Positions 3,471 to 32,482 of a DNA stretch of 34,017 nucleotides are shown piece after piece. The position numbers and the translations under genes were made by a program. The stretch spans positions 1 to 34,017 of the forward strand of contig CALJIQ010000368.1 in NCBI GenBank assembly GCA_937973995.1. The letters run 5' to 3'. This DNA comes from an uncultured Saprospiraceae bacterium. GTDB lineage: Bacteria; Bacteroidota; Bacteroidia; Chitinophagales; Saprospiraceae. Each line of letters opens with the position of its first letter. The stretch's first letter is position 1. Below the pieces are notes generated by a model, which searched no databases, had not been told where the DNA came from, and worked only from the letters and a program-made list of their open reading frames with translations.

Positions 3471-3565
3471 CCCGCAAAGTCTCGCTAAGGTTTCGCAAAG
3501 TACGCTAAGTTTGTCCAAGGTCTAGCTTTGCGTCCCTTAGCGTATCCTTTGCGAGACTTTGCGGG
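3471..3565. repeat. CGCAAAG/CGCTAAG word-array palindrome, copy A
   Basis: CCCGCAAAGTCTCGC...GCGAGACTTTGCGGG; same family at 13324-13411 and 30388-30475. Confidence 0.9.
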
Positions 3566-3607
3566 AACTACCTACTATATGGGTAGATTATTTATTGACA
3601 CTTATTC

Positions 3608-5152: not shown

Positions 5153-5236
5153 GCGGTAAAGTTAAGAAGGGGAAGTTAGAGTTAGGGAGTGTTATTGAAA
5201 GTTATTTTTAAGATTCTTTGACCTATTCCGTACAAC

Positions 5237-5330
5237 TTTCCCTGAAGTGGACATCGAGTCCACTTCAGGGAAACTAGGGTTTCTAAAGGGAGAAGGTAGG
5301 CTGCGCCTACCTTCTCCCATTAGAAACCCT
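5237..5330. promoter_or_regulatory. Two strong hairpins in the divergent intergenic region
   Basis: Hairpin 1: TTTCCCTGAAGTGGAC-ATCGA-GTCCACTTCAGGGAAA (perfect 16 bp). Hairpin 2: AGGGTTTCTAaaGGGAGAAGGTAGGC-TGC-GCCTACCTTCTCCCatTAGAAACCCT. Function not known. Confidence 0.6.
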
Positions 5331-5368
5331 TAATAACAATCAATAACTTATCATAATAGATTTTATTA

Positions 5369-6757
5369 ATGGAGAAATTTTTCAAACTAAGAGAGAACGG
5401 CACTTCCGTTTCTACAGAATGTTTAGCAGGACTGACCACTTTTTTGACCATGTCCTATATCATTTTTGTTAATCCTGCCATCCTTGCACAGACAGGAATG
5501 GACCAACAATCAGTGTTTGTTGCCACTTGTTTGGCAGCTGCCATTGGGACCTTGTTGATTGGACTTTTAGCCAACTATCCTTTTGCACAAGCACCGGGGA
5601 TGGGACTAAATGCCTTTTTCACTTATACCGTTGTATTTGGTTTGGGTTTTAGTTGGCAGCAAGGGTTGGCGATTGTTTTTTTGTCGGGCATCTTATTTTT
5701 AATATTAACTATAACGGGGTTACGAGCCACCATTATCAAAGCCATTCCTAAGTTTTTGAAACTAGCCATCGCGCCGGGGATTGGATTGTTTATTGCCTTA
5801 ATTGGGCTTAATAATGCAGGCTTAATTCATTTCAATCAAGGACCTATTATTGATATAATTTTAAATAACCAAGGTGCAGAAGCTGCTACTCTAATTGAAA
5901 AAATCAATGCCGCCCCTTCACAAGTTATTGAATTTGGTGATCTCAGTAAGCGCTCTGTTCAATTAGCGGCAATTGGTTTTATGATACTGACTGTTTTAAT
6001 GGTCAAACGTATTCGAGCAGCGATGATTTGGGCAATCCTATTGACGACCTTCATTGGCATACCAATGGGTGTTGTACAGTTACCTACCAGCTATGATTTA
6101 AGTAAAATTACTTTAGCCCCGACAGCTTTTCAATTAGATATAGCCAGTTTATTTACCCCCACGAAGGGTCAATCTTTGCTTACAATTTTTTTAGTAATTA
6201 TCAGTTTCACCTTAGTAGATTTACTAGATACTATGGGCACTCTAATTGGGACGGCTGCCAAAGGAGATTTGTTGGATGAAGACGGCAATCTGCCCAATAT
6301 GCAAAGAGCTTTATTTGCAGATGCAACTGCTACTACCCTCGGTTCACTACTAGGCACTTCTTCCGTGACTACCTATATTGAAAGTAGTTCGGGTATTATC
6401 GAAGGAGGCCGAACCGGACTCACCTCCTTGGTAACGGGCTGCTTATTTTTATTAAGCATTTTGATTGCTCCTATTGCTACGCTTATCCCTCCCGCTGCCA
6501 CTGCGCCTATTTTAATAATGGTGGGTATTTTGATGATGGAAAGTATTCGAGATATTGATTTATCGAATGTAGAAATTAGTATTCCTGCCATTCTTACGAT
6601 TATCATTATGCCTTTCACTTATAGCATTGCGAATGGCATTGCCTTTGGTTTATTGTTTTATGTGTTGATCCAAGTGGTGCAAGGAAAGTTTAAAGCGGTG
6701 CATCCTGTTTTGTATGTGTTGATTGGGTTGTTTTTGTTGAAGTATATTTTTATTTGA
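5369..6757 (+). CDS. NCS2 family purine permease (AzgA/GhxP-like)
   Basis: MEKFFKLRENGTSVSTECLAGLTTFLTMSYIIFVNPAIL; DLLDTMGTLIGTA; multi-TM hydrophobic pattern. Confidence 0.93.
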   Translation: MEKFFKLRENGTSVSTECLAGLTTFLTMSYIIFVNPAILAQTGMDQQSVFVATCLAAAIGTLLIGLLANYPFAQAPGMGLNAFFTYTVVFGLGFSWQQGLAIVFLSGILFLILTITGLRATIIKAIPKFLKLAIAPGIGLFIALIGLNNAGLIHFNQGPIIDIILNNQGAEAATLIEKINAAPSQVIEFGDLSKRSVQLAAIGFMILTVLMVKRIRAAMIWAILLTTFIGIPMGVVQLPTSYDLSKITLAPTAFQLDIASLFTPTKGQSLLTIFLVIISFTLVDLLDTMGTLIGTAAKGDLLDEDGNLPNMQRALFADATATTLGSLLGTSSVTTYIESSSGIIEGGRTGLTSLVTGCLFLLSILIAPIATLIPPAATAPILIMVGILMMESIRDIDLSNVEISIPAILTIIIMPFTYSIANGIAFGLLFYVLIQVVQGKFKAVHPVLYVLIGLFLLKYIFI

Positions 6758-6768
6758 GGTTTTTTTAA

Positions 6769-6905
6769 CCACATTAGGGCACATAAGTTGGGTCACATTA
6801 GGGCACATAGAAGTGAAGATCAAGATCAAGTTCAACCAATTAGATGTTGACAAAATCAAATCCCATTTGTGAACTAATGTGAAAAAACTAATGTGCCCTT
6901 ATGTG
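6769..6905. repeat. CCACATTAGGGCACATA palindromic element, copy 1
   Basis: CCACATTAGGGCACATAAG / CTAATGTGCCCTTATGTGG ends; homologous to 32283-32440. Confidence 0.88.
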
Positions 6906-6919
6906 GTCCCCAAAGCCCT

Positions 6920-7990
6920 TTAAAAAACCTTCAACCCATGAATCCCACCATTCGGATAATGCAAATACAATAGATGAGAAAAAGGTCCATGATGGTCTAA
7001 GTCTGTAAAACGATGATAAGTATCTGGTTGTAATTGTTCAAACGGCAGGATTGCTTTCCAAGGACTGTTTGGAGGAGTAGAAAGGGAGATTTCAAATTGG
7101 GTGGGTTGGTTTGTTTTTTCTTGCAAATACAATTGATGGAGCATGTATTGTTGAAAATTGGCGGGACGTACTTGATGCCCATCTTCAAAAAAGAGTTGCC
7201 ATTTAGGAAGGGAGGAAAGTTGGTTGTTGATGTCCATTTCAGGGGTTAATAACAATCCAAAAACGTGGCAAGTCAAAGGAGCATTATAGCGATGCAGATA
7301 GGTATCTACTACTATTTCTTGTATTTCAGTTGGTTGTTCTAAGTGAAAGACCGCTTGCTCACCAAAACCCGTTCTTGCCGATTCCCAACCAACCATGTGT
7401 AGTTCTTTTCTATTGCCCTTTACCGCCATTTCAGGGTTGCCATAATGGACATTTGAAATATTAGAGATGGTGGCTGTCTGTAATAAATTTTTTCGTGTTG
7501 GTAATTGTTTGGTTGCTGATTCTCCAAAGAAATTAATCCTTGAAATACCACCTTCATAAAATATTTTGATATAACATTCAGTCGCAAGAGTGGGGGCAAA
7601 AGAAAAGGTGTGTTCTTGGTCAGGTTGTAGCTCTACCCTAGTCAAAACTTCTAGTTGGGTATTCGATAATTCATCTATTAGTATCACCGAAATAGCTCTA
7701 GCTTGATTGCCTGTGTACCATTTGGTACTGACGGACATGGAAGATAATTCGGCTCTTTCTTGGAAGCCTAATTTCAACCAATTATGCGCATGATGATCGT
7801 AATAGATTTTTTTATCGGCAGGGTCAATTCGAGTCGCCTTATGGCGACAAGTTTCCAATCCCCAATACTTAGCCCCTGCATGTGTAAATACTTTTCGACA
7901 ATCTTTAGGCTCATCAGGTAATACTACTTCATGCGGATTGGTAAAGTCCGAATTGGAGTACCCAATGATATAAGATGGAATAAATTTCAT
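6920..7990 (-). CDS. alc: Allantoicase-like protein
   Basis: Duplicated allantoicase-like repeats: VFTHAGAKYWGLETCRHK ... YIKIFYEGGISRINFFG and NPEMAVKGNRKELHMVGWESART ... LLYLHYPNGGIHGLKVF; purine-catabolic context; start overlaps the xdhC stop. Confidence 0.85.
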   Translation of the reverse strand: MKFIPSYIIGYSNSDFTNPHEVVLPDEPKDCRKVFTHAGAKYWGLETCRHKATRIDPADKKIYYDHHAHNWLKLGFQERAELSSMSVSTKWYTGNQARAISVILIDELSNTQLEVLTRVELQPDQEHTFSFAPTLATECYIKIFYEGGISRINFFGESATKQLPTRKNLLQTATISNISNVHYGNPEMAVKGNRKELHMVGWESARTGFGEQAVFHLEQPTEIQEIVVDTYLHRYNAPLTCHVFGLLLTPEMDINNQLSSLPKWQLFFEDGHQVRPANFQQYMLHQLYLQEKTNQPTQFEISLSTPPNSPWKAILPFEQLQPDTYHRFTDLDHHGPFSHLLYLHYPNGGIHGLKVF

Positions 7991-8949
7991 GTGCGATAAT
8001 TTCGTCCTGTGGGTAATTTCCTATTGGTTTCTAAAATGATTTGCCCTGCGATGCTTACGGCAATTTCAGCGGCTGTTTTGCTATACATATTTATTCCAAT
8101 CGGTGTAAAAACATGCGCTATATCTTTCGCTAAAATCCCTTCTGCTGCTATCTCTTTTTTTAGGGTGGCTATTTTGTGGTCACTTCCCATCATACCGATG
8201 TAGGCAAACGGTTGTTTGTATAATTGTTGGAGTATCAACTTATCACTTCGATAAGAAAAACTAACGATCACCACTATATCCGATGGTGTGGATACCATTT
8301 CTTTTTTTATTTCTGCATAGTTAATCACCTTGATTTCATGGGCATAGTTATTCTTCAAAAGCGTTACCAAATTAGGTCGATCATCATACTGTATAATTCG
8401 ATAATCTAGAATAGCTAGTTGCCTAGCTAAGGCAAATCCCACATGCCCTGCTCCAAAAATGTGTATGGTCTTGGGCGGTGGAATTGGAAGTGCCACTTCA
8501 AAATCATGCGGATCAATGATCGTGATTTTCTCCAATGTTGTATTACTTATGGAGATTCCTGCTTGACTATTAAATTGGACAAAAATGGTTTCTTTCCTGT
8601 TAATAATGGTCCTTATGGTAGTGACATCTTTAGCCGTCAAAGGCATACAAATAACGGTCTGCGCTCCCGAACAAATTAAGCCCGATTGATTTCGAGCATG
8701 TTCTTTATCGTGAAATTGTTCTTTAATAATTCCTCGCCTTTCTCCTTTTTCCATCAGGCTTTTCGCCAATTCTATTAGCTTTACTTCCATAATACCGCCT
8801 CCAATGGTTCCTTCAAAATCTCCTTGCTCATTGACAGCCATTGTAAATCCTTTTCGACCGGGGGAACTTCCTTTACTATCTATCACATAGAGTAAAGAAA
8901 CTAAAATGTCTTGCTTTAAATTCTCTAATATAAAGGACCAAACTTTCAT
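7987..8949 (-). CDS. xdhC: XdhC/CoxI family protein (Mo-cofactor insertion for xanthine dehydrogenase)
   Basis: VIDSKGSSPGRKGFTMAV, GTIGGGIMEVKLIE, IFGAGHVGFALARQLAILDYRIIQYDDRP, YIGMMGS. Confidence 0.9.
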   Translation of the reverse strand: MKVWSFILENLKQDILVSLLYVIDSKGSSPGRKGFTMAVNEQGDFEGTIGGGIMEVKLIELAKSLMEKGERRGIIKEQFHDKEHARNQSGLICSGAQTVICMPLTAKDVTTIRTIINRKETIFVQFNSQAGISISNTTLEKITIIDPHDFEVALPIPPPKTIHIFGAGHVGFALARQLAILDYRIIQYDDRPNLVTLLKNNYAHEIKVINYAEIKKEMVSTPSDIVVIVSFSYRSDKLILQQLYKQPFAYIGMMGSDHKIATLKKEIAAEGILAKDIAHVFTPIGINMYSKTAAEIAVSIAGQIILETNRKLPTGRNYRT

Positions 8950-8957
8950 ATTTTTTA

Positions 8958-8986
8958 TTGTGTTAACACTCTTGGTGTTAACATAA
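8958..8986. repeat. Short palindrome carrying the same asymmetric ends as the 75-nt hairpin family
   Basis: TTGTGTTAACACTCTTGGTGTTAACATAA: TTGTGTTA left, TAACATAA right, as in 26364-26438. Confidence 0.6.
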
Positions 8987-8994
8987 TTTGCTTT

Positions 8995-9134
8995 GAATGT
9001 ATAACAAATTTGGGAATCCTAACTATCAATCAGATGGGCTTAAAGCCATCAGATTGAAGGAAGGCGTCTCATCTTCTCACTTGGAGAGCGCTGATGAGTT
9101 ACTCCATTTGCTTATAATTTATTTCCTCATTCTA
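8995..9134. repeat. Two-hairpin intergenic element, copy 1 (approximate bounds)
   Basis: GAATGTATAACAAATTTGGGA start, hairpin CAATCAGATGGGCTTAAAGCCATCAGATTG, GCGTCTCATCT spacer, GATGAGTTACTC(CA)TTTGC end; same frame at 18727-18865. Confidence 0.65.
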
Positions 9135-9208
9135 GTTATGTTATCTCAAATTTTAACGGTAAGAAAATTAAAAATTTTCCTACCGTTAAAATTTAGAGCT
9201 AACACAAC
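9135..9208. repeat. 74-nt conserved-end/variable-stem hairpin, copy 1 (A...B orientation)
   Basis: GTTATGTTATCTC-AAATTTTAACGGTAAGAAAATT...AATTTTCCTACCGTTAAAATTTAGAGCTAACACAAC. Confidence 0.9.
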
Positions 9209-9227
9209 GATCACCAGTTACCAATCA

Positions 9228-10655
9228 CTAAATCCGCTTCCGCCCCTCCAAAATCTTCCGAAAAGAACGGCTCCGAATTTCTTCTAAGCTCAAGCCCGTA
9301 GCCAACACTTCCTCTTCTGAAATGGCCCCACTATTCAAGCCTCTTAGAAAGTAATTGAGCAATCCTTGTCCAGTAGCAGCATCATCAAAAATATCTCCAG
9401 TTAAGCTCGCCCGTGCTGCTTTTTCCACAAAGGCTTTAAGACGGAGGACTGCATCGTGATAGCTTTCTAAAAAGAAAGCATACACTGCCGCATACCGCAT
9501 AGGCAGTTGTGCAGGATTCAAATCCCAGCCTTGGTAATATCCATTCCATAGCGAATGCCGAATATGGTCGTATCCTTTTTTCCAAGCACGATGAACTACT
9601 GCTTGATTTTCTTGTTGTTGGGCAGGCGTTAAGTCACCTCGATGTGGACCAATCGGCATCGTGTTCGTAGCGCCATCTGATAAAAATATGCCCGTATGTC
9701 CTAAGGCTACCTTGGTAACATGATGCGCAAAATCGCAGACCGGATGATTCATCTCCTGATACATCGCCGTGATATTGCAAGAGGCGGTATAGTCATAAGT
9801 CCCAAAGTGCATGGCAATACAACGACCCTTTGCCGCTTTAATAAATCGGTATAGTGGATTCACGCCATTGATGTCCAAAATGGATTGGGTTGTTTCTACC
9901 ATCATTTCCATCTTTAGACTGCCAGTAGGTATTTGCAACTGGTCTTCTAATAAACTAAAACAGTCCGCTAACGTTTCAGGTTGTTCGGGTATCGTGACCT
10001 TTGGTAGCATGACCACGAAATTGTTGGGCAATTGTCCATCTGTTAGTTGAACTAGGGTGCTCAAGAAAATATCCAACGTCCGTAGTCCTCTATCTTTGGT
10101 TTCCTCTGTAAAGGATTTGATGCGGATACCGATAAAGGGAGGAAGTGAATTTTGTTGCATGCCTTTTGCCACTTCCGTAGCTGCTTGAACGGCTATTTGA
10201 TCTTCTTCCTCATTGGACCGATTGCCAAAGCCATCTTCAAAATCAATTCGAAAGTCTTCTAGGGCTTCTGTTTGTAATTTCTGCAGTACCTTCTGATAAA
10301 TGGCATAGCTCAAATAAGCAGGATGCTTGGTTTGTTTTTTTGTTGGTAATGTCTTTATCGCTGCTTCCACTGCAAGGATGTCTTTTTCTTCTGTGGGTAA
10401 GGCTTCAAATCCTTTTAATTGGAATAGTTTTCCAAATACAGAAAAATTCGGCGCATAGGTTACTAAAGCCTTTAATGATTTTTCTTGGAAGTGCTGGGCA
10501 ATATTTTGGTTAAACAAATGCGCACCTCCATACACCGTATGTACGGGTTGCCGATCAGATTTATCTCCTGGATATAATTGATTAAAAGCCTGATTAGCCG
10601 CACTTAGTTTTCTAAAGAGTTGTGATTTTGCTTGTGGATTGATACTTATATTCAT
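9228..10655 (-). CDS. HpcH/HpaI aldolase / citrate-lyase-like TIM-barrel protein (possibly DUF6986 family)
   Basis: FRIDFEDGFGNRSNEEEDQIAVQAATEVAKGM, GIRIKSFTEETKDRGLRTLDIFLS, VVMLPKVTIPEQ, KMEMMVETTQSI, AMHFGTYDYTASCNI; family number from memory. Confidence 0.75.
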   Translation of the reverse strand: MNISINPQAKSQLFRKLSAANQAFNQLYPGDKSDRQPVHTVYGGAHLFNQNIAQHFQEKSLKALVTYAPNFSVFGKLFQLKGFEALPTEEKDILAVEAAIKTLPTKKQTKHPAYLSYAIYQKVLQKLQTEALEDFRIDFEDGFGNRSNEEEDQIAVQAATEVAKGMQQNSLPPFIGIRIKSFTEETKDRGLRTLDIFLSTLVQLTDGQLPNNFVVMLPKVTIPEQPETLADCFSLLEDQLQIPTGSLKMEMMVETTQSILDINGVNPLYRFIKAAKGRCIAMHFGTYDYTASCNITAMYQEMNHPVCDFAHHVTKVALGHTGIFLSDGATNTMPIGPHRGDLTPAQQQENQAVVHRAWKKGYDHIRHSLWNGYYQGWDLNPAQLPMRYAAVYAFFLESYHDAVLRLKAFVEKAARASLTGDIFDDAATGQGLLNYFLRGLNSGAISEEEVLATGLSLEEIRSRSFRKILEGRKRI

Positions 10656-10684
10656 TATTGAGATTTTAAAAAGGCAGTAATTGA

Positions 10685-10823
10685 CTTGGTATTGTGGTTT
10701 TATGGTCTTTTGGTATTATGGTTGAATTTTCAATATGGGATAAAAGGTTAAAATCCTAAAAAACTTTTGTAAAAGTAAGATTGACCACAATGCCACAATA
10801 CCAAAATACCATAACACCTAACT
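10685..10823. repeat. GGTATTGTGGT word-array palindrome, copy 1
   Basis: TTGGTATTGTGGTTTTATGGTCTTTTGGTATTATGG / CCACAATGCCACAATACCAAAATACCATAACACCTAACT; related to 30567-30634. Confidence 0.8.
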
Positions 10824-10838
10824 AATTAAAATAGCATA

Positions 10839-11708
10839 TCAACTACCTCGATAAGTTGTATAACCAAACGGGTTCAACAGTAAGGGTATATGGTAATGCG
10901 TTTGGTCAAATGTATTAAAATCGATCACTACTTTTGGATAAAAGCTGGTTTTCTCTTGTGCTTCAAAATAGTTGGACGTTTGAAAGTGCATTTGATAATG
11001 ACCAGTGAGCAAGTCAATACCCGCAGGTAATAAGTCGGTAATTCTGCCATCCGCATCCGTAATTCCTAAAGCGACGGTTTGCCAATTTTCTTGTACCTGT
11101 TTTTTTAATTTAATACAAATCCCCTTAGCAGGTGTACCTAAGGAAGTGTCCAATATATGCGTTGTAATCTGACTGACTTTCTGCCAATAGGCTTCTTGAA
11201 ATTGAAATAATTTATTCAATCTAATTAGGGTAATTTTATGCTGTTCGCCTTTGGCAATTTCCAATTCCTCCGAAGACGTATGCCCTACTCTCTCTTTCAA
11301 CAAAAGCAACATTTCTTCAGCACTTTTACCCGTAGCACATACTATAAAAATATAGCCAAACTTTTGAAAATATTGTTCATTATACTCTGCTAATTCTTGA
11401 ATCGTTTGTGCAGCTGCTTGCTTCACACCACTTTGTTCATTCGCCGCCCACTCTTTCGTTGAAGCAAATTTTTTCTTTAAACTTTCTATATCTCCTATTT
11501 TTGGATGATGGCTAAATGCTTCCAAAGCATCGGCTTCTTGCAGTTGTTCATACCAAATATTGTTCACTTGTTCAAACAGGTGTTGTTCACTTTTAAACGG
11601 AAAATGATCCATTAATTTTTCCAACCACGAAGTAGAACCACAGCAGGTAAATAAGGCTGCTTTGGCTTGTTCTATTGATAAATTATTGAAAGCAGATAGT
11701 TTATACAT
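10839..11708 (-). CDS. Bifunctional OHCU decarboxylase (UraD) - 5-hydroxyisourate hydrolase (UraH) fusion
   Basis: N-terminal UraD-like (FSHHPKIGD, ASTKEWAANEQSGV); C-terminal transthyretin-like (ITTHILDTSLGTPAKG ... YHIPLLLNPFGYTTYRGS). Confidence 0.95.
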   Translation of the reverse strand: MYKLSAFNNLSIEQAKAALFTCCGSTSWLEKLMDHFPFKSEQHLFEQVNNIWYEQLQEADALEAFSHHPKIGDIESLKKKFASTKEWAANEQSGVKQAAAQTIQELAEYNEQYFQKFGYIFIVCATGKSAEEMLLLLKERVGHTSSEELEIAKGEQHKITLIRLNKLFQFQEAYWQKVSQITTHILDTSLGTPAKGICIKLKKQVQENWQTVALGITDADGRITDLLPAGIDLLTGHYQMHFQTSNYFEAQEKTSFYPKVVIDFNTFDQTHYHIPLLLNPFGYTTYRGS

Positions 11709-11728
11709 TTATTTAAATTTTGCTTATT

Positions 11729-11800
11729 GCAACGTTTTGCAGTGAGTCACATTCGCCGCCCATCGCCGCTGCGCGACTGCGCCGCCTCGCAAAACGTTGT
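11729..11800. repeat. Inverted repeat GCAACGTTTTGC / GCAAAACGTTGT flanking a GC-rich core
   Basis: Arms 11729-11740 and 11789-11800 (11/12 paired); core GCCGCCCATCGCCGCTGCGCGACTGCGCCGCC is markedly GC-rich against its surroundings. Confidence 0.65.
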
Positions 11801-11845
11801 CAACGTCTAGTACATTCTCAATTCTCAATTCTCCATTCAAACAAA

Positions 11846-13261
11846 CTATTCCAGCCTAGCCCCACCCTCAATCCAACACCGAATTTTTTCCCGTTCCGCA
11901 GGCGTGATACCCGTTTTATTATTTTGGGGCATATCTTTGGTAATCACCACCCGTTGCATAATCTTATCCGTTAATTTCACAATATCCTGAGGCGTATCAT
12001 AGACGATCCCATTGGGCGGGGCAGTCCACACATCATCCGTAGGGGTAGCTGAATGACAGGAGACACAGCGCTCCTGTATGATCGGATAAATTTGGGTAAA
12101 AGAAACTTCTTCACATTCGCCGCCTACCGGTGTCGGTGCCGTGATGAATACCGTTGACAATAAAATAATGGTAGCAATGGGAATCACCCAAACCGACTGT
12201 TGTTCTTTTTCTTTTAAATTTAGATAATGCTTAACCGCCGCACTTCCCAAAGATAGTAAAGCCAAAATCAACCAAGGGTATTCATGACTAAAGGTACTAG
12301 GGAAGTGATTGCTAATCATCACAAAGAGGACAGGCAAGGTAAAATAATTATTGTGATAAGAGCGCAAGCCTGCAAAATTTCCAATAGCGGGATCTAAATA
12401 CGTGCCTTCTTTGGTTGCCTTCACCATCGCTTTTTGGGCAGGGATAATCACAAAAAAAACATTACCTGCCATCAAAGTGCCGATCAATGCGCCAAAGTGG
12501 ATAAAGGCAGCTCTAGGATTAAATACTTGGGTATAGAAATAGGCGAAACCAATTAATATCACAAACAAGGTAATGCCAAACCACAAAGGCTTTTTGAGTA
12601 AAGGCGTTAGACTCAAGAGATGGTAAATGCTATATCCAATAGCTAGTGAAGCCACCCCGATAGCGATTGCTGCCCAAGCCGTTAAGCTAGTAGTTCCCGA
12701 CTTTAGCAGCATGGCTTCTGCATTAAAATAATAAACCACGAAGAGTAAACCAAAACCCGTTAACCAAGTAAAATAGGCTTCATATTTAAACCAATGTACG
12801 CCCTTGGGCATTACTGCTGGAGCCACCTGATATTTTTCAACAAACCAAAATCCGCCTCCATGTAACATCCACATATCTCCTTTTAATTCAGGTCGCTTTT
12901 TATTTTTATGTAGGCTATTTTCCATAAAAACAAAAAAGAAAGAGGTACCAATCCAAGCAATTCCGAAAGTGATGTGTAACCAACGAACAATAATATTCAT
13001 CCATTCTTGGAAGTGCCCTGCATATAGGGTGTCTCGCCATTGAAAATAGGCTAATGCCACTATGGCAAGAAAACAACATACGATTCCTGTGTAAATAAAT
13101 TCATTGGAACTTACCAGTTTTTCTAACATCACTTCCTGCTCCTTTTCTTCTCTTTTTTCGTCCTGTATTACACTCTTTTTGAACTGCTGCGTTCGATGAC
13201 TTAGCTGTGTTAGTAGCAACAGGATAAGTGTTAGAAAAAGTAGTAAGCAAAGTATTACCAT
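11846..13261 (-). CDS. puuD: PuuD-type membrane urate oxidase with C-terminal cytochrome c domain
   Basis: Multi-TM; EWMNIIVRWLHITFGIAWIGTSFFFVFMENSL, PKGVHWFKYEAYFTWLTGFGL; C-terminal haem motif CVSCH and CWIEGGARLE. Confidence 0.93.
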   Translation of the reverse strand: MVILCLLLFLTLILLLLTQLSHRTQQFKKSVIQDEKREEKEQEVMLEKLVSSNEFIYTGIVCCFLAIVALAYFQWRDTLYAGHFQEWMNIIVRWLHITFGIAWIGTSFFFVFMENSLHKNKKRPELKGDMWMLHGGGFWFVEKYQVAPAVMPKGVHWFKYEAYFTWLTGFGLLFVVYYFNAEAMLLKSGTTSLTAWAAIAIGVASLAIGYSIYHLLSLTPLLKKPLWFGITLFVILIGFAYFYTQVFNPRAAFIHFGALIGTLMAGNVFFVIIPAQKAMVKATKEGTYLDPAIGNFAGLRSYHNNYFTLPVLFVMISNHFPSTFSHEYPWLILALLSLGSAAVKHYLNLKEKEQQSVWVIPIATIILLSTVFITAPTPVGGECEEVSFTQIYPIIQERCVSCHSATPTDDVWTAPPNGIVYDTPQDIVKLTDKIMQRVVITKDMPQNNKTGITPAEREKIRCWIEGGARLE

Positions 13262-13323
13262 AAAGAGGAATAAAGATTAAAGAAACGAATCATGAAAAAA
13301 AATTACGCTACATACGATATTAG

Positions 13324-13411
13324 TTCCCGCAAAGGCACGCCAAGGTTTCGCAAAGTACCGCTAAGTATGTCAACGTCTAACTTTGCAGAACTTGGCGAGA
13401 CTTTGCGGGAA
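13324..13411. repeat. CGCAAAG/CGCTAAG word-array palindrome, copy B
   Basis: TTCCCGCAAAGGCACGCCAAGG...CTTGGCGAGACTTTGCGGGAA. Confidence 0.9.
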
Positions 13412-13419
13412 ACCTATTT

Positions 13420-14772
13420 TCATACCTTTCCACCTTTGTTGTTCCCTAGCCATTTCTTTCCAAAAGAAGTATTTGTGATAACTTCCTTTTGATAAGCCCA
13501 TTGCCCATTAACCACCGTGCTATGAACAAGTCCATAGAGTTGTCGATGGAGATATGGGGTCGCCTTATGTTTATGCTCAATCATTCCTTCCTCTACTTGA
13601 AAAGAAATACCTGGCTGCCAAATAGTTAGATCTGCTTGAAAGCCTTCTTTTATTTGACCAATTCGTTCATCTAATCCCAAAAACGCAGCAGGTTTTGACG
13701 TTACTAAAGGTATAAAATCCTCTAAACTCATTTCTTCTTTCAAGGCAGTCCAACTAGCGGAAAGCAAAAATTGTAACCCCGCAATACCGCCCCATGCTTT
13801 GGAAAAATTTCCACCGTCCAACTCCTTAATCTCAGGGGGTGCAGGGGAATGATCGCTGCTAATAAAATCAATAATGCCCGCTTGTAAAGCTTGTTTTAAA
13901 TGTTGTCCATTTTCCTTTTTTCTAATAGGTGGCGCACATTTAAACAGGGTATTTCCATCTGGTATCTCCTCCGCATTAAAAAAGAAATAATGGGGACAGG
14001 TCTCCACTGTAAAAGGAATACCTTCTTGCTTTTTTTGAGCAATCCATTCGATCATTTCATCGGAGGCTAAATGGACGATATGTGCTTTACAATTATGTTT
14101 TTCTGCTAGTGCAATGAACGATTTAATGGCTTCATTTTCCCAAGTCTTCGGTCTTGATTTTAAATAGGCAGTATAGCTCTTTGGCGTAGCTATTATCTCT
14201 TTAGAAGCTGGCAAGGTATCTAATTCACAATGTGCCAAAATGGGAATTTCCAAATGGGCAATACCTGCCATCAATTGATCCAAATCTACTAAAGAAATAT
14301 TTGGAAATTCGTCAATACCAGAGTGAGATAAAAATACTTTTACGCCTAAACAACCTGCTGCTATTAACTGCTCTATTTCTTTCACTGAAGCCGCAGTCGC
14401 GCCAGCCCAAAAGCCACAATTGGCATATAGCTTACCGTCGCTTGCTTGTATTTTTTTTTGGAATGCAGCCATATTGGTTACGACTGGACTAGAATTCAAC
14501 GGCATATCAACTAAAGTCGTTATGCCTCCTTTGATGGCGGCTTTGGTGGCAGTTTCGAAGCCTTCCCAGTCGGTACGTCCTGGTTCGTTGATGTGGACGT
14601 GGGCATCTATTACGCCTGGCATGATTACACTTCCGGAGTAGTCCAATGCTGTTGGTATATATTTACCAAGATGAATGGCTGCTATCTTATCGTCTAGTAT
14701 AGAGAGTGTTGCTGCTTGCAATTTTCCTTTTATGAAGACTTGGTCGCTATATATCTGATAAGAGGTTATCAT
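13420..14772 (-). CDS. allB: Allantoinase
   Basis: VIMPGVIDAHVHINEPGRTDWEGFETATKAAIKGGITTLVDMPLNSSP; amidohydrolase motifs; cluster context. Confidence 0.93.
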   Translation of the reverse strand: MITSYQIYSDQVFIKGKLQAATLSILDDKIAAIHLGKYIPTALDYSGSVIMPGVIDAHVHINEPGRTDWEGFETATKAAIKGGITTLVDMPLNSSPVVTNMAAFQKKIQASDGKLYANCGFWAGATAASVKEIEQLIAAGCLGVKVFLSHSGIDEFPNISLVDLDQLMAGIAHLEIPILAHCELDTLPASKEIIATPKSYTAYLKSRPKTWENEAIKSFIALAEKHNCKAHIVHLASDEMIEWIAQKKQEGIPFTVETCPHYFFFNAEEIPDGNTLFKCAPPIRKKENGQHLKQALQAGIIDFISSDHSPAPPEIKELDGGNFSKAWGGIAGLQFLLSASWTALKEEMSLEDFIPLVTSKPAAFLGLDERIGQIKEGFQADLTIWQPGISFQVEEGMIEHKHKATPYLHRQLYGLVHSTVVNGQWAYQKEVITNTSFGKKWLGNNKGGKV

Positions 14773-14917
14773 TAGTTACTTAGATAATTTTTATTCAGCT
14801 TAGAATGCTCATCTCACCCACATCCCAATGCTGCGACATCAGCCGCCACCAAGCAGGGACATGTTCCTAGATGTTGCTAAAACACTTTCTATAATATCAC
14901 ACTTTTAAGTCTTCTAC

Positions 14918-17230
14918 TCAACTATACAAACTCATCAACACTCGTTCTGCTGTCATGGGTGCTACATATGTAAGTGTAGCTTTAGGATTAAAAGCCAAGA
15001 TGGCATTACAAAGCGAAAAGTAAGCGCCAATGCCATACATTAAAGGAGGTTCGCCCACTGCCTTTGATTTTAGAATGGCTAAGTCGCTACCCGCTGTTTC
15101 TAAGTATTGGACGGCTATTTCCTTTGGGACCGAATAAATATCTGGTATTTTATAGTTGGCTAAATTACCAGATTTTAAGACGCCTTTTTCATCGTAAATT
15201 AATTCTTCCATCGTCATCCAACCCATACCTTGAACCAATCCGCCTTCTATTTGTCCTAAATCCACAGAACGATTCATACTGCTGCCAAAATCATGCACGA
15301 TTTGCACGGAATCAAATTCATAATTGCCTCGAATGCAATCTACCGTACTTTGAAAAATAGCCGTTCCATATACATGATAGGCAAAGGGATGTCCTTTGGA
15401 AGTCGTGTTGTCGAAGTGAATTTTAGGCGTGGCATAATGCCCTTTTGCGCTTAGGTTGATGCGTTTTTGAAAAGCTAGTTGGATTAATGCTTCCCATTGT
15501 ATTTCTTGCGAGTGATCTAAAGCGAAAATTTTATTTTCTTCAAAAATAATAGTATCTAGGTCTTGGCACTTCCACTCGGCAGCGATCATTTTTTTTAGCC
15601 TGTGGAGAATTTGAGAACAGGCATCTTGTAAGGCTTTTCCATTTAAATCAGCCGTTGCACTTGCTGCGGAGGGAGAGGTATTGGCTACCCTAGTCGTATT
15701 AGTCGTTTCTAATTTAATACGTCCGTAATCAATCCCAAAGCTACCTGCTGCTACTTGAATCATTTTGGAACTAACCCCCTGCCCCATTTCAATCGCCCCC
15801 GTACTAACGCCCACGCTACCGTCGCTATATACATGTACTAATGCCCTCGCATTGTTCATCATCGTATTAGTGAATGAAATACCAAAACAAACAGGCATCA
15901 ATGCCAAGCCTTTTTTAATGTATTTATTCGTTGCATTGAATTGTCGAACTTGCTCTTTCCGTTCCCCGAATCCATAATTCTTTTTGGCTTGTACCCAACA
16001 GTTTTGAGCTTCGCAATTTTCTGTTTTCTGTCCATAGGAAAATTCAGAACCTTCTTCCAATAGGTTCCTTTCTTGTATGATTTGCGCATCTACGCCAATT
16101 GCTCTAGCCGCATGATGAATAGCGGCTTCTATCACAAACATTCCTTGTGGACCACCAAAGCCTCTGAAGGCGGTATTCGGTGGCAAATTAGTCTTACAAG
16201 AATAAGCGTTAGTTTTTACATTCGGCACATAATAACTATTAGTAGAATGAAAAAGCGTTCTGCCAAGTATGGCAGGAGATAAGTCCGCAGCTGCTCCCCC
16301 ATTTTGAAAGTATTGTCCCTCAAAAGCAAGTATTTTATAGTTGTTATCGAGTCCTATTTTATAGCGACTTTTATAAGGATTCCGTTTGCCAGTCATTTGC
16401 AAATCTTCCCCTCTTTCTAAGATATATTTGACAGGTCGATTGGTTAGATAAGTGCCTAATGCCACCATCGTCGCCCAAGGAGATGCTTGGTCTTCTTTGC
16501 CTCCAAAACCACCTCCGATCCGATTAACATCTACTTCTATTTGATTCATAGTTACCCCCAATACCCTAGCTACCGTTCGTTGCACGGCGGTCGGTCCTTG
16601 CGTAGAACTATATATTTTAATGCTCTTATCTCCATTGGGAATCGCATAGGCCCCTTGGGGTTCTAGATAGACATGTTCTTGTCCGCCTGTTTCCGCCGTG
16701 CCTTCAAAAATATAGGAGCAATTGGTAAATGCAGTTGTCGTATCTCCAAGTTGAAAGGTTTTAGGATCACTTAAATATTGTTGCTGTTGGTGGGCGACTA
16801 TCGGGTCAGTGATAATTTCTTTTTCTGCTATTTGAATGGTGATTGCTTCACAAGTATGGTGGGCAATTTTTTCCGATTCTGCAATAATCAATAAGATGGG
16901 CATTCCGATGAAATGAACTTCCGTTTCAGCTAGTAACGGTTCATCTGGAATAATCCCTCCAATCTGATTTTCTCCTGGAATATCTTTATAGGAAATGATG
17001 CGATGAACGCCTGGCATTGCCATCGCCTTTGACAAGTCTATTTCTTTAATGATCCCATGCGCCACTTTTGAATAATAGACTTTAGCGTATAGGGTTCCTG
17101 CTAATTCTGGTAAGTCATCTAAATATTGGGTTCTGCCCGTTACGTGTAAGGGCGCATCTATATTTAAGGAGTTCTTTTTTTTCTTTGTTTTTGGATTTAT
17201 GGTCATAATTTGGTTTACTGAAATGCTCAA
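14918..17230 (-). CDS. xdhB: Xanthine dehydrogenase molybdopterin-binding subunit
   Basis: GGGFGGKEDQA, NTAFRGFGGPQGMFVIE, GAIEMGQGVSSKM, KAVGEPPLMYGIGAYFSLCNAI. Confidence 0.95.
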   Translation of the reverse strand: MSISVNQIMTINPKTKKKKNSLNIDAPLHVTGRTQYLDDLPELAGTLYAKVYYSKVAHGIIKEIDLSKAMAMPGVHRIISYKDIPGENQIGGIIPDEPLLAETEVHFIGMPILLIIAESEKIAHHTCEAITIQIAEKEIITDPIVAHQQQQYLSDPKTFQLGDTTTAFTNCSYIFEGTAETGGQEHVYLEPQGAYAIPNGDKSIKIYSSTQGPTAVQRTVARVLGVTMNQIEVDVNRIGGGFGGKEDQASPWATMVALGTYLTNRPVKYILERGEDLQMTGKRNPYKSRYKIGLDNNYKILAFEGQYFQNGGAAADLSPAILGRTLFHSTNSYYVPNVKTNAYSCKTNLPPNTAFRGFGGPQGMFVIEAAIHHAARAIGVDAQIIQERNLLEEGSEFSYGQKTENCEAQNCWVQAKKNYGFGERKEQVRQFNATNKYIKKGLALMPVCFGISFTNTMMNNARALVHVYSDGSVGVSTGAIEMGQGVSSKMIQVAAGSFGIDYGRIKLETTNTTRVANTSPSAASATADLNGKALQDACSQILHRLKKMIAAEWKCQDLDTIIFEENKIFALDHSQEIQWEALIQLAFQKRINLSAKGHYATPKIHFDNTTSKGHPFAYHVYGTAIFQSTVDCIRGNYEFDSVQIVHDFGSSMNRSVDLGQIEGGLVQGMGWMTMEELIYDEKGVLKSGNLANYKIPDIYSVPKEIAVQYLETAGSDLAILKSKAVGEPPLMYGIGAYFSLCNAILAFNPKATLTYVAPMTAERVLMSLYS

Positions 17231-17246
17231 TTACTTTGGTTAGCAT

Positions 17247-17275
17247 ATTACAAAAGTTTCAAAAACTTTTGTAAT
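17247..17275. repeat. Hairpin ATTACAAAAGTTT-CAA-AAACTTTTGTAAT
   Basis: Perfect 13-bp stem between xdhA and xdhB; same ATTACAAAAGT word as 2139-2173. Confidence 0.75.
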
Positions 17276-17301
17276 CTTCATTTATAAGTAAAAGTGATCC
17301 C

Positions 17302-18702
17302 TCAGTCAATAATTTTTTCAAGCTCCAACTCTTTTTCTTGATTCGCCATAAATTGAGCAACAAACAATTGTCTAGCTAATAGGCGTTTATAATCTGCCGA
17401 ACCTCTAGCATCACTGATAGGGAAAATCTCTACATTTAAAATGTCAATGGCAGCTCGAATAGTATCTTCATGAATCAATTTCCCTTTTAAAAAATCACCA
17501 GTTCGGTGCAAGTAAGTAGGAATAGGACCTACGCCTCCAACTGCTAAATGTGCTTCTTGAATAAGGTCATTTTTTAAATTGAAAGAAGAAGCAAAATTGA
17601 CACTAGCAATATCAAAATACTTCCGTTGGCTCACTTTTTCAAAATGAAAGTGGGTAGCAGCAGACGGTATTTTGAATTGAATTTTTTCTAGTATTTCTCC
17701 TTCCTTCAAATCAATTTGTTTGTAGCCTTTATAAAAATTGTTAAGTGCTAGTGTTCTTCTATTCCCTTCTTTTTCTATAATAATTTTACTATCCAAAGCC
17801 AATAATAAAATCGTAAAATCGCCAATGGGAGAGGCATTCACTAGATTGCCTCCGATGGTTGCCATATTGCGAATTTGGGTAGAGGATAGTAGTTTAAAAA
17901 TATACTCTGAATTGGGTAATACCTTTTTAAAAAGTTCCGAACGATATAAATCTCCCATGGTTAAAGAGGCTCCGAAAATACAATGACCCTCCTTGCTTTC
18001 TATCTGCTTCATAGCGGGTCGGTCATATACAGGTAAAGCTTCTGTTTCATACATAGTCCACGGTCGTTGGACGTATAAGTCCGTTCCTCCGCCGAGTTTG
18101 GTCGTTCCTTTCTGTTCTTTTTGAACAGTCGGAATCGCCGCTAAGCGGTTGGGTATTTCTTTGAAATAATCTGGAATATATTTTTTTGAAATCAGGTTAG
18201 AAACAGTCAATTGTGGTAGGTCATTTGTAACTTGTGTTCTAATGAATTCGGCTGCTCGCTCAATCCCTTTGTATCCCGTACATCGACAAATATTTCCATC
18301 AATAGCCCCAATGATTCCTTCCATAGAAACAGTAGCAGTAGAAAGCAAATAGCCTGTCAAAGACACCACAAATCCTGGCGTACAGAATCCGCACTGCGTT
18401 CCGTATCCATCCACCATTGCTTGTTGCACGGGCGTCAGTTTCTCCATATTTAAGCCCTCAATCGTTACCACATGTTTGCCTTGCACATTCACCAAAGGCG
18501 TAATGCAGGAGGTCATCGTTTGATAGAAAATTCCTTCCGCTTTTTGTTCTCCAATTAAGACTGAGCACGCCCCGCACTCCCCTTCTTTGCAAACTAACTT
18601 ACTACCTTTTAACTGTCGGTCCTTACGAATAAAATCCAATAGTGCCATTCCTGTTGGAGCGGATGTTTGTATGGTTTGATTATTTAAAAGGAAGGAAATC
18701 AT
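17302..18702 (-). CDS. xdhA: Xanthine dehydrogenase small subunit (2Fe-2S + FAD domains)
   Basis: CKEGECGACSVLIG, CGFCTPGFVVSL, NICRCTGY; FAD domain IRNMATIGGNLVNASPIGD. Confidence 0.95.
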   Translation of the reverse strand: MISFLLNNQTIQTSAPTGMALLDFIRKDRQLKGSKLVCKEGECGACSVLIGEQKAEGIFYQTMTSCITPLVNVQGKHVVTIEGLNMEKLTPVQQAMVDGYGTQCGFCTPGFVVSLTGYLLSTATVSMEGIIGAIDGNICRCTGYKGIERAAEFIRTQVTNDLPQLTVSNLISKKYIPDYFKEIPNRLAAIPTVQKEQKGTTKLGGGTDLYVQRPWTMYETEALPVYDRPAMKQIESKEGHCIFGASLTMGDLYRSELFKKVLPNSEYIFKLLSSTQIRNMATIGGNLVNASPIGDFTILLLALDSKIIIEKEGNRRTLALNNFYKGYKQIDLKEGEILEKIQFKIPSAATHFHFEKVSQRKYFDIASVNFASSFNLKNDLIQEAHLAVGGVGPIPTYLHRTGDFLKGKLIHEDTIRAAIDILNVEIFPISDARGSADYKRLLARQLFVAQFMANQEKELELEKIID

Positions 18703-19522: not shown

Positions 19523-19610
19523 ACATTATTAATTATTAATTATTAATTATTTTCCAGACGCTACTGAACACGCCTAATTAGCTAATAATCACTAATTAAT
19601 AATCAATCAA
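19523..19610. repeat. TAATTA word-array imperfect palindrome
   Basis: ATTAATTATTAATTATTAATTATTTTCC ... GCCTAATTAGCTAATAATCACTAATTAATAATCAATCAA. Confidence 0.6.
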
Positions 19611-24878: not shown

Positions 24879-26354
24879 ATGAGTAAGGACTTCATAAAGA
24901 TACAACAGGCGACATTTCGGCATAGAAATCAGACGTTTTATGATAATTTTAACTGGTCTATCCGAGCAGGGGAGCATTGGGTCATCACAGGTAATTGTGG
25001 GGCAGGTAAAACGAGTCTAGTCCATGCGCTTTCTGGTAAATATTTTCCAGTAAAAGGTACGATAACATATCCTTTTTTAGCGAACCAACAAGAATCTTAT
25101 CTAACATTAAGACGGCAATTAATACGAGTTGTCTCCTTTAGGGATGATTCGAGGGTATTCCGTCCCAATTTATATTTCTATCAACAACGCTATAATGCTT
25201 TTGCAGCAGATGGGACCTTAACGGTGTGGGAATATCTAATGAATGCAGGTTTTGATGAAAGGATTGAAGACCATATAAAGTTAATTAAAAAAACGGGTAT
25301 TTATCCACTATTAGATGTAGAACGCATAAAATTATCCAGCGGACAATCTCGTAAATTACTCATTACCAAAGCCTTATTACAACATCCAAAAATTTTAATT
25401 ATTGATAATCCTTATTTAGGACTCGATGCACCTAGTAGAAAAGAATTTAATGGCTTATTGGACCAGTTGGTGGATGAGGAAGAACTACAACTGATCTTGG
25501 TAGGACAATATGAAGTATTGCCAACCTGTATGACGCACTGCCTGATATTAGATCAGTTTAAAATAACTTATGAAGGTTCACTCTTATCTATTCCAACTTC
25601 CACTATCAATAACCACAACCCCTCCCCTTCTCCAATTCTGGATCAAATTCAACAACTCTATCTCCCACCAGAACAAACAAAGAACCCAATATTTGATTTA
25701 CAAAAGGTAAGCGTTCAATATCTCCAAAAACCCATTCTTCAAGGTATTAACTGGACCGTACAAAAAGGAGAAAAGTGGGCACTAGTAGGGCATAATGGCT
25801 CTGGTAAGTCCACCATTCTTTCATTATTATTTGGCGATCATCCCCAAGCATATGCCAACGATATTTATCTCTTTGGTCAAAAACGAGGAATGGGACAAAG
25901 TATTTGGGACATCAAAAAACATACGGGCTTTACTTCTCCTGAATTGCATTATTTTTTCAGCTATTCTATCAGTTGTTTACAAACCGTTATTACTGGCTTA
26001 TTCGACCATGTGTATTTAAAACGATCTCCTACAGAAAAGGAGCAACAACTGATAGATCTCCTCTTCCAATATTTTGAAATCACCCATTTAAAAGATCGTT
26101 CTTTTCAAGAGGTATCTACTGGTGAGCAACGAACAGTTTTGTTCCTTCGAGCTTTGATTAAAAATCCGCCCTTACTTTTATTGGATGAGCCATTTCAAGG
26201 ATTTGATCCTCCTACGATTACCAAAGCAAAGCGATTATTGGATACGATTTTGACGGATGCTCACACGCTCGTCTTTATCTCGCATTACCAGAAAGAGATT
26301 CCAGCTTGTGTGAAGAAAGTGGCTTATTTGGAAGATGGGAAATTAAGACGGTAA
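24879..26354 (+). CDS. ABC-type protein with two ATP-binding domains (ModF/PhrA-like)
   Basis: Two Walker A motifs (GNCGAGKTS; GHNGSGKST), signature-like LSSGQSRK and VSTGEQRT, Walker B LLLLDEPFQGFDP; no TM segments. Confidence 0.9.
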   Translation: MSKDFIKIQQATFRHRNQTFYDNFNWSIRAGEHWVITGNCGAGKTSLVHALSGKYFPVKGTITYPFLANQQESYLTLRRQLIRVVSFRDDSRVFRPNLYFYQQRYNAFAADGTLTVWEYLMNAGFDERIEDHIKLIKKTGIYPLLDVERIKLSSGQSRKLLITKALLQHPKILIIDNPYLGLDAPSRKEFNGLLDQLVDEEELQLILVGQYEVLPTCMTHCLILDQFKITYEGSLLSIPTSTINNHNPSPSPILDQIQQLYLPPEQTKNPIFDLQKVSVQYLQKPILQGINWTVQKGEKWALVGHNGSGKSTILSLLFGDHPQAYANDIYLFGQKRGMGQSIWDIKKHTGFTSPELHYFFSYSISCLQTVITGLFDHVYLKRSPTEKEQQLIDLLFQYFEITHLKDRSFQEVSTGEQRTVLFLRALIKNPPLLLLDEPFQGFDPPTITKAKRLLDTILTDAHTLVFISHYQKEIPACVKKVAYLEDGKLRR

Positions 26355-26363
26355 GCACTCAAG

Positions 26364-26438
26364 GTTGTGTTAGCTCTAAATTCTTTTATTTTAAAAATTT
26401 ATCAATTTTCAAAATAAAAGAATTTGATATAACATAAC
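26364..26438. repeat. 75-nt conserved-end/variable-stem hairpin, copy 2 (B...A orientation)
   Basis: GTTGTGTTAGCTCTAAATTCTTTTATTTTAAAAATT...AATTTTCAAAATAAAAGAATTTGATATAACATAAC. Confidence 0.9.
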
Positions 26439-26452
26439 TCAATGAAAGGGAA

Positions 26453-26527
26453 ATTATGTTATCTCGAATTTGAGTTACTAGAATTTTTATCAAAATTCTA
26501 GTAATTCAAATTCAGAGCAAACACAAT
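26453..26527. repeat. 75-nt conserved-end/variable-stem hairpin, copy 3 (A...B orientation)
   Basis: ATTATGTTATCTC-GAATTTGAGTTACTAGAATTTT...AAAATTCTAGTAATTCAAATTCAGAGCAAACACAAT. Confidence 0.9.
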
Positions 26528-26536
26528 GACTCCTAC

Positions 26537-27637
26537 CTACGGAAAAGGCTTAAACAAATACACCTCAATTCGCCGATTCTTAGCTCGACCTGCTGGGGTA
26601 TCATTAGACGCAATAGGATATTGATCGCCGACTCCTTTGAAGAGTAATCGTTCTTTATCAATACCTTTAGTTATTAAATAATTCGCAATAGCTTCTGCCC
26701 TTTTAGCAGATAGGCGTTCGTTCGTAGTCGGATTACCAGAGCTATCGGTATGGCCATAAATCCCTAAATTATTGTCGGGATGAGATTGCAAAAAAGCGAC
26801 TAATTCGTCTAACTCTCTTTGCGTATCAGTGGACAATTGAGTTTTGCCAGAGGAAAAGGTAGTGGCAGCCAGCGGCACTATTTGATTATCCAATAAAGCC
26901 GTTTCTATTTTTTTAAAAGAGCTGGTTGCGATAGCAGAGGCAGGATTGAATCGAATATTTTTAAAACAAACCTTATGCTGATTAGAGTATTGACCAGTAG
27001 AAGAAGTCACCCCCCAAAACACTTCTGAGGTTCCACCAAAAATTTCCTGTATGATGTCTTTTTGTAAACGGATGAGTTGTTTTCCATCTAGCGTAACCGT
27101 CAAGGTTTTCTCCAGTGCCGACCAATTGATTTTTAAAGCGTGATTTTCGCAGTCATCTATGTTAGGAATGGTAATAGGTTGCGTTAATCCATACCGATGA
27201 TGTACTACACCATCTTGTAAAACCGCCAAATGGTCCTCTGGGGGGTCGTATAAATGTCCATTTTGCCAAGTATCTATTTCGATGCCGATAGAAGGACTAA
27301 CGCCAGAAAACCCCATACCTTCTCCTTCTCTCCCCATTGCCATTTTAGGGCTAAAAATAAAAACCATTCCATCTGCCCCATCGCCATCCTTACAACCCAA
27401 GAATACCTCTAAGTCCATATTGAAATTGCTATTCAAGTCGATTTTATTCGGGTAATAAATGGACCCACCTGCCCAGATTCGATCTTCTGTTAGTTGGAAG
27501 CAGTTATCTGACAGTTTTGCTGCATTAGCAGATAACTCAATCAATCCCCTGATCAAGTCCCAACCCTTGTTCTGTGCAAAAGAAAAGGTGCTAATAAAAC
27601 CAAAGAGAAAAACAGAAATAAAGTAGCGAATAGTCAT
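26537..27637 (-). CDS. OmpA-family protein with N-terminal L-type-lectin-like domain
   Basis: Preferred start at MTIRYFISVFLFGFISTFSFAQ (signal peptide) inside the longer ORF 26537-27721; lectin-like DGADGMVFIFSP...IGIEIDTWQNG; OmpA-C LGIYGHTDSSGNPTTNERLSAKRAEAIANYLI...NRRIEVYL. Confidence 0.9.
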   Translation of the reverse strand: MTIRYFISVFLFGFISTFSFAQNKGWDLIRGLIELSANAAKLSDNCFQLTEDRIWAGGSIYYPNKIDLNSNFNMDLEVFLGCKDGDGADGMVFIFSPKMAMGREGEGMGFSGVSPSIGIEIDTWQNGHLYDPPEDHLAVLQDGVVHHRYGLTQPITIPNIDDCENHALKINWSALEKTLTVTLDGKQLIRLQKDIIQEIFGGTSEVFWGVTSSTGQYSNQHKVCFKNIRFNPASAIATSSFKKIETALLDNQIVPLAATTFSSGKTQLSTDTQRELDELVAFLQSHPDNNLGIYGHTDSSGNPTTNERLSAKRAEAIANYLITKGIDKERLLFKGVGDQYPIASNDTPAGRAKNRRIEVYLFKPFP

Positions 27638-27832
27638 GGCAAGCGATTGAGATGAAGCAATGCGAAAGTTCTCAATGTCGAATTTTGAAAAGGCTAAGAT
27701 GTAAGGCAACTGAACATTCAAAATTGAGAGCTTACAGCAATACAGTCTATAGAACGAAAAATCGGAGATTTCCGTTTAGAGGATGTCGAAAATTCATATC
27801 GAGTTGAAAATCAATATCAAATCAGCCCTCTC

Positions 27833-30347: not shown

Positions 30348-30387
30348 TGTATTAGGGAAATTCGGTTTTCCTACCCAAAAATCTATT

Positions 30388-30475
30388 TCCCGCTAAGTTG
30401 CGCTAAGGCCTCGCAAAGTAACGCTAAGCTAGGCCTTTGCGAGACTCTGCGAAACCTTTGTGAGACTTTGCGGGA
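30388..30475. repeat. CGCAAAG/CGCTAAG word-array palindrome, copy C
   Basis: TCCCGCTAAGTTGCGCTAAGGCCTCGCAAAGTAACGCTAAGC...GCGAGACTCTGCGAAACCTTTGTGAGACTTTGCGGGA. Confidence 0.88.
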
Positions 30476-30566
30476 GATAAATACTCAGTAGATTATTTTA
30501 CCTTCCTACTTAAATATTAAAAAACCGTAAGTTTGATGCTTCAAAATTTAATCGGATTTATGGCAT

Positions 30567-30634
30567 TTAGGTTTTAGGGTATTGTGGTGAGCAACCATAC
30601 CACCAAAAAACCAAAATACCACAACACCTACTAA
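30567..30634. repeat. GGTATTGTGGT word-array palindrome, copy 2
   Basis: TTAGGTTTTAGGGTATTGTGGTGAG...CCATACCACCAAAAAACCAAAATACCACAACACCTACTAA; shares ACCAAAATACCAYAACACCTA with 10685-10823. Confidence 0.78.
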
Positions 30635-30637
30635 CAA

Positions 30638-30913
30638 ATGGCAAGTAAAAAAGAAATACTAGGAAAGATCAGAATCCTCATCACGCAAAAATTTGAGGAC
30701 CCACAAGAAGCATTCAATTTCTTTGATAAAAACGGGGATGGGTATTTGAGTAAAGCGGAATTAATAGAACTAGTCAAAAGTGCAAAAGTCAATAGATTTC
30801 TGTCTAAAGTAGTCGCTAAAACGATCATAACCGGACTGGATAAAGACGACAATCAAAAATTGAACTGGAAAGAGTTTAGCAAAGCCGTTAAAGTGTTACT
30901 TACCGAAAAATAA
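30638..30913 (+). CDS. Small EF-hand protein
   Basis: DKNGDGYLSKAE (canonical EF loop) and DKDDNQKLNWKE (second loop). Confidence 0.85.
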   Translation: MASKKEILGKIRILITQKFEDPQEAFNFFDKNGDGYLSKAELIELVKSAKVNRFLSKVVAKTIITGLDKDDNQKLNWKEFSKAVKVLLTEK

Positions 30914-32280: not shown

Positions 32281-32282
32281 GT

Positions 32283-32440
32283 TTTAAACCACATTAGGGC
32301 ATATTAGTTTTTTCACATTAGTACACATAAGACTAAAGATCAAGAGCAAGTGCCAAGTACAAGTTCAACCTATTATAGGTTTCTCAGAAGCTTTATTTCG
32401 TGGACTAATGTGTCTCAACTAATGTGCCCTAATGTGGTTA
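32283..32440. repeat. CCACATTAGGGCATATTAG palindromic element, copy 2
   Basis: AAACCACATTAGGGCATATTAG...ACTAATGTGCCCTAATGTGGTT; homologous to 6769-6905. Confidence 0.88.
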
Positions 32441-32482
32441 AAATACAATCAGCAAAGCGATACCATCAAACAATCTTCCAAT

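Follow-up and report, generated by a model that had tools for sequence, protein, structure and literature searches.

The pair of hairpins at positions 26364–26527 of the window (the whole 34,017-nucleotide stretch of Saprospiraceae DNA that was analysed) is very likely a dimeric, non-autonomous element of the REP/REPIN kind, one of a population carried by this genome together with a cognate RAYT (HUH/Y1) gene on contig C155. Judging from the sequences, a RAYT-type transposase acting on single-stranded DNA has very probably spread the family. The first-pass annotation of this region had proposed a repeat family with variable stems, arranged as an inverted pair with two possible folds, that could act as a two-way terminator or 3'-end stabiliser. 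Our analysis supports the structural part of this interpretation but not the dedicated terminator or stabiliser.

Structure of the hairpin pair

Direct reading of the sequence confirmed two opposed 75-nt hairpins with their A ends facing each other, 14 nt apart, lying between the stop of an ABC gene (26354) and that of a lectin/OmpA gene (26537). The distance from the B foot to the adjacent stop codon is 10 nt on both sides. The features are as follows.

24879..26354, + strand: ABC-transporter ATPase gene 5' of the pair (context, outside the element)
26364..26438, + strand: unit 1, 75 nt, G...C foot, stem AAATTCTTTTATTTTAAAAATT, B foot TTGTGTTAGCTCT, A foot GATATAACATAA followed by C; identified by sequence reading, model match (71.5 bits) and fold
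26439..26452, no strand: spacer separating both A feet, 14 nt, tcaatgaaagggaa
26453..26527, − strand: unit 2, 75 nt, A...T foot, stem GAATTTGAATTACTAGAATTTT; identified by sequence reading, model match (83.9 bits) and fold
26537..27721, − strand: L-type lectin/OmpA gene, convergent (context, outside the element)

Folded as single-stranded DNA, unit 1 gave −17.7 kcal/mol (z = −7.3) and unit 2 gave −21.6 kcal/mol (z = −10.5) relative to dinucleotide shuffles, and the whole gap folded as RNA gave z = −12.5. Both units and the gap as a whole are much more stable than shuffled sequence. The suggested alternative, in which like ends pair (B–B and A–A), is real: the minimum-energy DNA fold of the pair is this cloverleaf (−45.5 kcal/mol) and not the two separate hairpins (−38.8 kcal/mol). 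A search of the window against Rfam matched no family.

A dispersed hairpin family

The idea of a repeat family was borne out by the genome searches, which revealed far more copies than are visible within the window. BLASTn of the 164-nt pair against the genome, whose assembly is fragmented into 562 contigs, gave 44 matches, including at least 10 full-length pairs with 66–81% identity. A covariance model trained on 21 gap-free units found 137 matches counted over both strands, which corresponds to roughly 70 units. In other genomes, a few matches were found in three of the eight from the same genus and none in the 32 from elsewhere in the family or order. An exact-pattern scan of the named genomes added one further contig, which represents the same place as the copy in sister species G008.

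All doublets are ordered B...A, spacer, A...B, that is, head-to-head with the A feet inside; the opposite layout was found zero times. The core-to-core spacing in most other pairs is 15–22 nt. Single units and mini-units, each with one B and one A foot, also occur. The short versions measure 29 nt or 49–57 nt, and the 29-nt hairpins consist of almost nothing but the feet. Two further members lie in the window, head-to-head with each other:

8958..8986, + strand: mini-hairpin, 29 nt, with the family feet and no long stem (TTGTGTTAACACTCTTGGTGTTAACATAA)
9135..9208, − strand: full unit of the G...C-foot type in a codirectional gap (82.3 bits)

Full-length units sit between called ORFs (the gene calls are open frames only), some of them slightly overlapping a gene end. 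The clear exception to the intergenic placement is a mini-hairpin in the RAYT gene. Beside the G-type foot, the outer flank shows a weak AAGTNNTCNATG signal, with its own position scoring best in 14 of 32 flanks; this is possibly a target preference or a host repeat.

Conserved feet and variable stems

The foot consensus of the family is [GA]TTGTGTTAGCTCT ... GAGATAACATAA[CT]T. Identity between copies is 96% in the feet and about 53% in the 22-bp stem above them, so the earlier description of the stems as variable was correct: the copies share their feet and differ in the stem. Among 66 full units, position 3/71 is a G·T wobble in every one, and T13 is an unpaired extra (bulged) base in 65. 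The outermost foot pair is A-T in 35 units, G-C in 30 and G-T in one, and largely tracks two stem types. The wobble and the bulge are strand-asymmetric and fixed in the feet regardless of gene context.

Pairing of the stem has been held despite its divergence. A total of 97.8% of the stem cells are paired, and double changes were counted in 155 cells versus 46 in shuffles, with a covariation score of 0.61 versus 0.13. The guide tag of known systems is absent: GT[AG]G was found at the two feet in 2/66 and 2/66 units, against a background of 4.5%, and CGTC in 1/66 and 0/66.

The RAYT gene and its counterpart in a sister species

Contig C155 (L084) carries a 240-residue open frame (4010–4732, − strand) encoding a RAYT-like HUH/tyrosine transposase. 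Five units surround this frame, at 3761, 3958, 4766, 4876 and 4990, and a 29-nt mini-unit of the family (4120–4148) lies within the reading frame itself (NYVSTKSANT), past the Tyr motif, leaving the frame intact. The protein has the HxH and Tyr motifs of the RAYT/TnpA_REP proteins, and in an alignment with seven relatives the HxH (HFH) and Tyr columns are invariant, but its scores lie below the curated thresholds: it matches the NCBIfam model REP_Tyr_transpos (NF047646) with E 4.8e-16 and 59 bits (curated cut-off 80), and PF01797 with 19.2 bits (cut-off 23 bits). A PDB search with the single sequence found no match. Its profile, however, matched 4er8 (E 9.8e-5), and the best fold match of the predicted model was again 4er8 (E 1.7e-7, 14% identity), the structure of a REP-associated tyrosine transposase in complex with a REP hairpin.

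No family unit was found near the six other Y1 or RAYT-like loci checked in this genome. The four genes retrieved with the Y1_Tnp profile, whose cut-off the C155 RAYT just misses, do not lie near units.

In sister species G001, the closest RAYT, with 58% identity, lies on contig C97 and is flanked on both sides by TTGGGTTAGC...GCTAACCTAA units. The G001 genome has 49 exact matches to the TTGGGTTAGC...GCTAACCTAA pattern, whereas a reversed-pattern control gave none and three other genomes gave none. The family of G001 retains the TTG versus TTA asymmetry of the feet and the bulge in the B arm, and the feet of the two species differ by one base pair (TTGTGTTAGC in the present genome, TTGGGTTAGC in G001). 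The strongest argument for calling the family a RAYT system is that parallel families adjoin orthologous RAYTs in these two species. Among 248 genomes of the family Saprospiraceae, a protein search found only two more relatives with E < 1e-40, at about 41% identity, and the hairpins beside them are short, GC-rich and of a different kind.

In the mechanism that we propose, the RAYT would bind the folded single strand through the foot, where the wobble pair (G·T) and the T bulge would mark the strand. It would then cut and rejoin single-stranded DNA, by which new copies would be placed between genes. The upper stem would be required for its shape and length, not for its sequence.

Maintenance of the paired stems

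Differences between the stems of related copies are compensated at 315 pair-positions and one-armed at 82. The loops were compared as well. In 49 comparisons of related stems, nine loops were clearly inverted and two had the same sense, versus four inverted and two in the same sense in 501 comparisons of unrelated stems; these counts are drawn from overlapping sets of copies, and the comparisons are not independent events. In the near-duplicate pairs of C228 and C409 (91% identity over 323 bp), each of the two loops is reverse-complemented while the arms hardly differ. Inverted repeats that undergo template switching are known to have their arms homogenised and their spacer inverted (PMC8604942), and maintenance of RNA hairpins by template switching has been proposed (PMC8794818). 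Inverted loops and joint arm changes are characteristic of template switching, and it is probably this DNA-level process that mainly maintains the pairing. During replication, switching between the arms of a hairpin would copy mutations from arm to arm and flip the loop, so that stems would drift yet stay paired.

Alternatively, selection on RNA or DNA structure alone, acting through compensatory mutations, could keep the stems paired in elements that are still driven by the RAYT. We consider this rather unlikely. The covariation is strong, as such selection would have it, and among the stem imperfections G·T is somewhat commoner than A·C (26 vs 13, p = 0.053). However, G·T accounts for only about 2% of stem cells, and block inversion of a loop between near-identical arms is not produced by selection on pairing alone. 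The excess of G·T over A·C amounts to no more than a weak preference, and some selection on the folded B-to-A strand is possible.

Gene context

A bidirectional terminator or mRNA 3'-end stabiliser between convergent genes, maintained for the function of its RNA hairpins, is improbable as the explanation of the pair. The closeness of both stops, the very stable fold and the T-runs in the spacer of some other pairs speak for it. At the focal pair itself, however, no terminator-like site was found at 26300–26600, and no U-tract follows the stem. Among 34 non-redundant loci with both neighbours called (same-locus duplicates merged by hand), 19 gaps are codirectional, 10 convergent and five divergent. 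Most loci are therefore not convergent, most genes at the divergent loci can be recognised, and the 10:5 ratio of convergent to divergent gaps is not significant (p = 0.30). The fixed asymmetry of the feet, whatever the gene context, and the units surrounding a RAYT also argue against a terminator.

Two sister species, G003 and G008, keep the ABC gene and the gap, and G003 also retains the lectin gene facing it. Their gap on the ABC side has no unit but an unrelated long AT-rich palindrome (AAATCAGAAATCTTACATCATAAATC...; L112 2061–2167 and L113 2316–2430). That another palindrome occupies the same gap could be taken in favour of a terminator; its being unrelated to the hairpin pair counts against one. 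Gaps of this kind may simply tolerate palindromes. A passive effect of the pair on transcript ends is possible, but it is not what maintains the family, and the focal copy probably does little for its neighbouring genes.

Search for signs of insertion

These relatives are only about 75% identical and have other sequence in the gap, so the comparison of filled and empty sites gave no clean site pair. No target duplications were seen by eye at the flanks of the units. Their absence is expected of a RAYT/IS200-type process. It does not fit a classical DNA-transposon MITE mobilised by a DDE enzyme, in which the outer B feet would be terminal inverted repeats. The pairs resemble such an element in their length of 164–170 bp, inverted ends and non-coding interior, but the units and mini-units that stand alone with one B and one A foot, and the Y1/HUH enzyme as the associated gene in two species, make a MITE very improbable. 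An integron attC-like recombination site shares the fixed ends, the variable palindromic interior and the asymmetric unpaired base, but was rejected as hardly credible at all, since the end polarity of the unit, GTTA...TAAC, is opposite to that of attC and gene cassettes are absent, the loci lying between ordinary genes of differing orientation.

Comparison with known REP/RAYT systems

The family shares with REPs and REPINs its high-copy intergenic palindromes, inverted doublets, conserved ends with a compensated interior, and a RAYT flanked by repeats. The REPINs and RAYTs of Pseudomonas fluorescens SBW25 are likewise dispersed extragenic inverted doublets near a cognate RAYT, with conserved ends and a length-constrained hairpin interior; their spacers are reported to conserve their length and hairpin form and to show compensatory changes (PMC3116915). 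The sizes are also similar, at 71 bp for GI and 73–75 nt per unit here. In contrast to the SBW25 elements, the present family is without a GTAG-type guide, its conserved ends are not small palindromes themselves, its stems diverge almost fully, and its units themselves form head-to-head dimers.

The REP/BIME sequences of E. coli and TnpA_REP (group 2, PMC8266576; 4er8) offer a second likeness: a long hairpin whose lower stem is conserved, as is its bulge or mismatch, and REP types in inverted pairs flanking the gene of an HUH/Y1 enzyme. E. coli TnpA_REP depends on the bulge in the stem, and for the upper half of its REP a non-specific, structural role has been described (PMC8266576). Here, however, there is no GTAG, the unit is about twice as long, the sequence of the upper stem is free, and the RAYT is distant (14% identity).

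The TnpA_REP proteins of subclass 2.4, from Bacteroidetes and Cyanobacteria, are alike in lineage, in having a REP-type hairpin in the RAYT reading frame, and in long 'double foot' hairpins, which have one foot at each end (PMC6006769). Unlike in the present family, the feet of this subclass are of the GT[AG]G and C[TC]AC types, and its insertions are usually between the HUH and Tyr motifs whereas the mini-hairpin here comes after the Tyr motif. The GTAG- and CGTC-tagged palindromes (PMC3733652) are also high-copy, extragenic and present as singles and head-to-head dimers, but the family described here carries neither tag.

Other repeats and genes in the window

Several other features were noticed. 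A second palindromic repeat family (TCCCGCAAAGTCTCGCTAAGG...) is intergenic, at 3447–3570, 13317–13411 and 30380–30480 of the window. The third consists of imperfect palindromes of about 150 nt built on CCACATTAGGGCACAT (6762–6907 and 32282–32443). The fourth (ACCACAATGCCACAATACC...; 10784–10828 and 30594–30638) resembles an inverted repeat (L129 1594–1693) that lies about 1.2 kb away from a different Y1/RAYT gene of the genome. Just upstream of the CTP synthase/lectin lies a repeat of about 45 nt (27769–27816) with about 10 matches at 82–91% identity in the genome and some more in G003. The near-duplicate pairs at L085 1700–2300 and L038 1400–1757 (91% over 323 bp with flanks) are nested in a further AT-rich inverted repeat, ATTACTGATTATTAATTATT / AATTAGCTAATAATCA, which resembles window 19525–19607. 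The window also contains a purine breakdown gene set (2305–18702), with xanthine dehydrogenase-like subunits, urate oxidase, OHCU decarboxylase/HIUase, allantoicase, an amidohydrolase and a permease.

A probable REP/RAYT system without the usual tag

Against the REP/RAYT reading stand the missing GT[AG]G/CGTC guide, a RAYT below the curated cut-offs and the lack of a clean filled/empty pair. REP/RAYT systems are best known from Proteobacteria, and GTAG is the usual search motif by which they are detected. Our literature search on Saprospiraceae and repetitive extragenic palindromic sequences found no paper in the collection searched.

We tentatively propose that a clade of Saprospiraceae RAYTs without a GTAG-type guide may read a strand-asymmetric foot, made of a G·T pair and a one-base bulge, below an upper stem that is free in sequence. 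The elements may evolve by template switching, with arms drifting together and loops flipping, while the feet diverge between sister species in step with the RAYT (TTGTGTTAGC vs TTGGGTTAGC).

We regard the family as a variant of the REP/RAYT kind, which works like the described systems but fails the GTAG/CGTC test. Its copies form a within-genome data set for asking whether selection or template switching keeps the stems paired. As a REP/RAYT system lacking the GTAG tag, with two parallel element–transposase pairs whose feet are distinguished by a single base pair between sister species, it offers a ready test of the rules of recognition.
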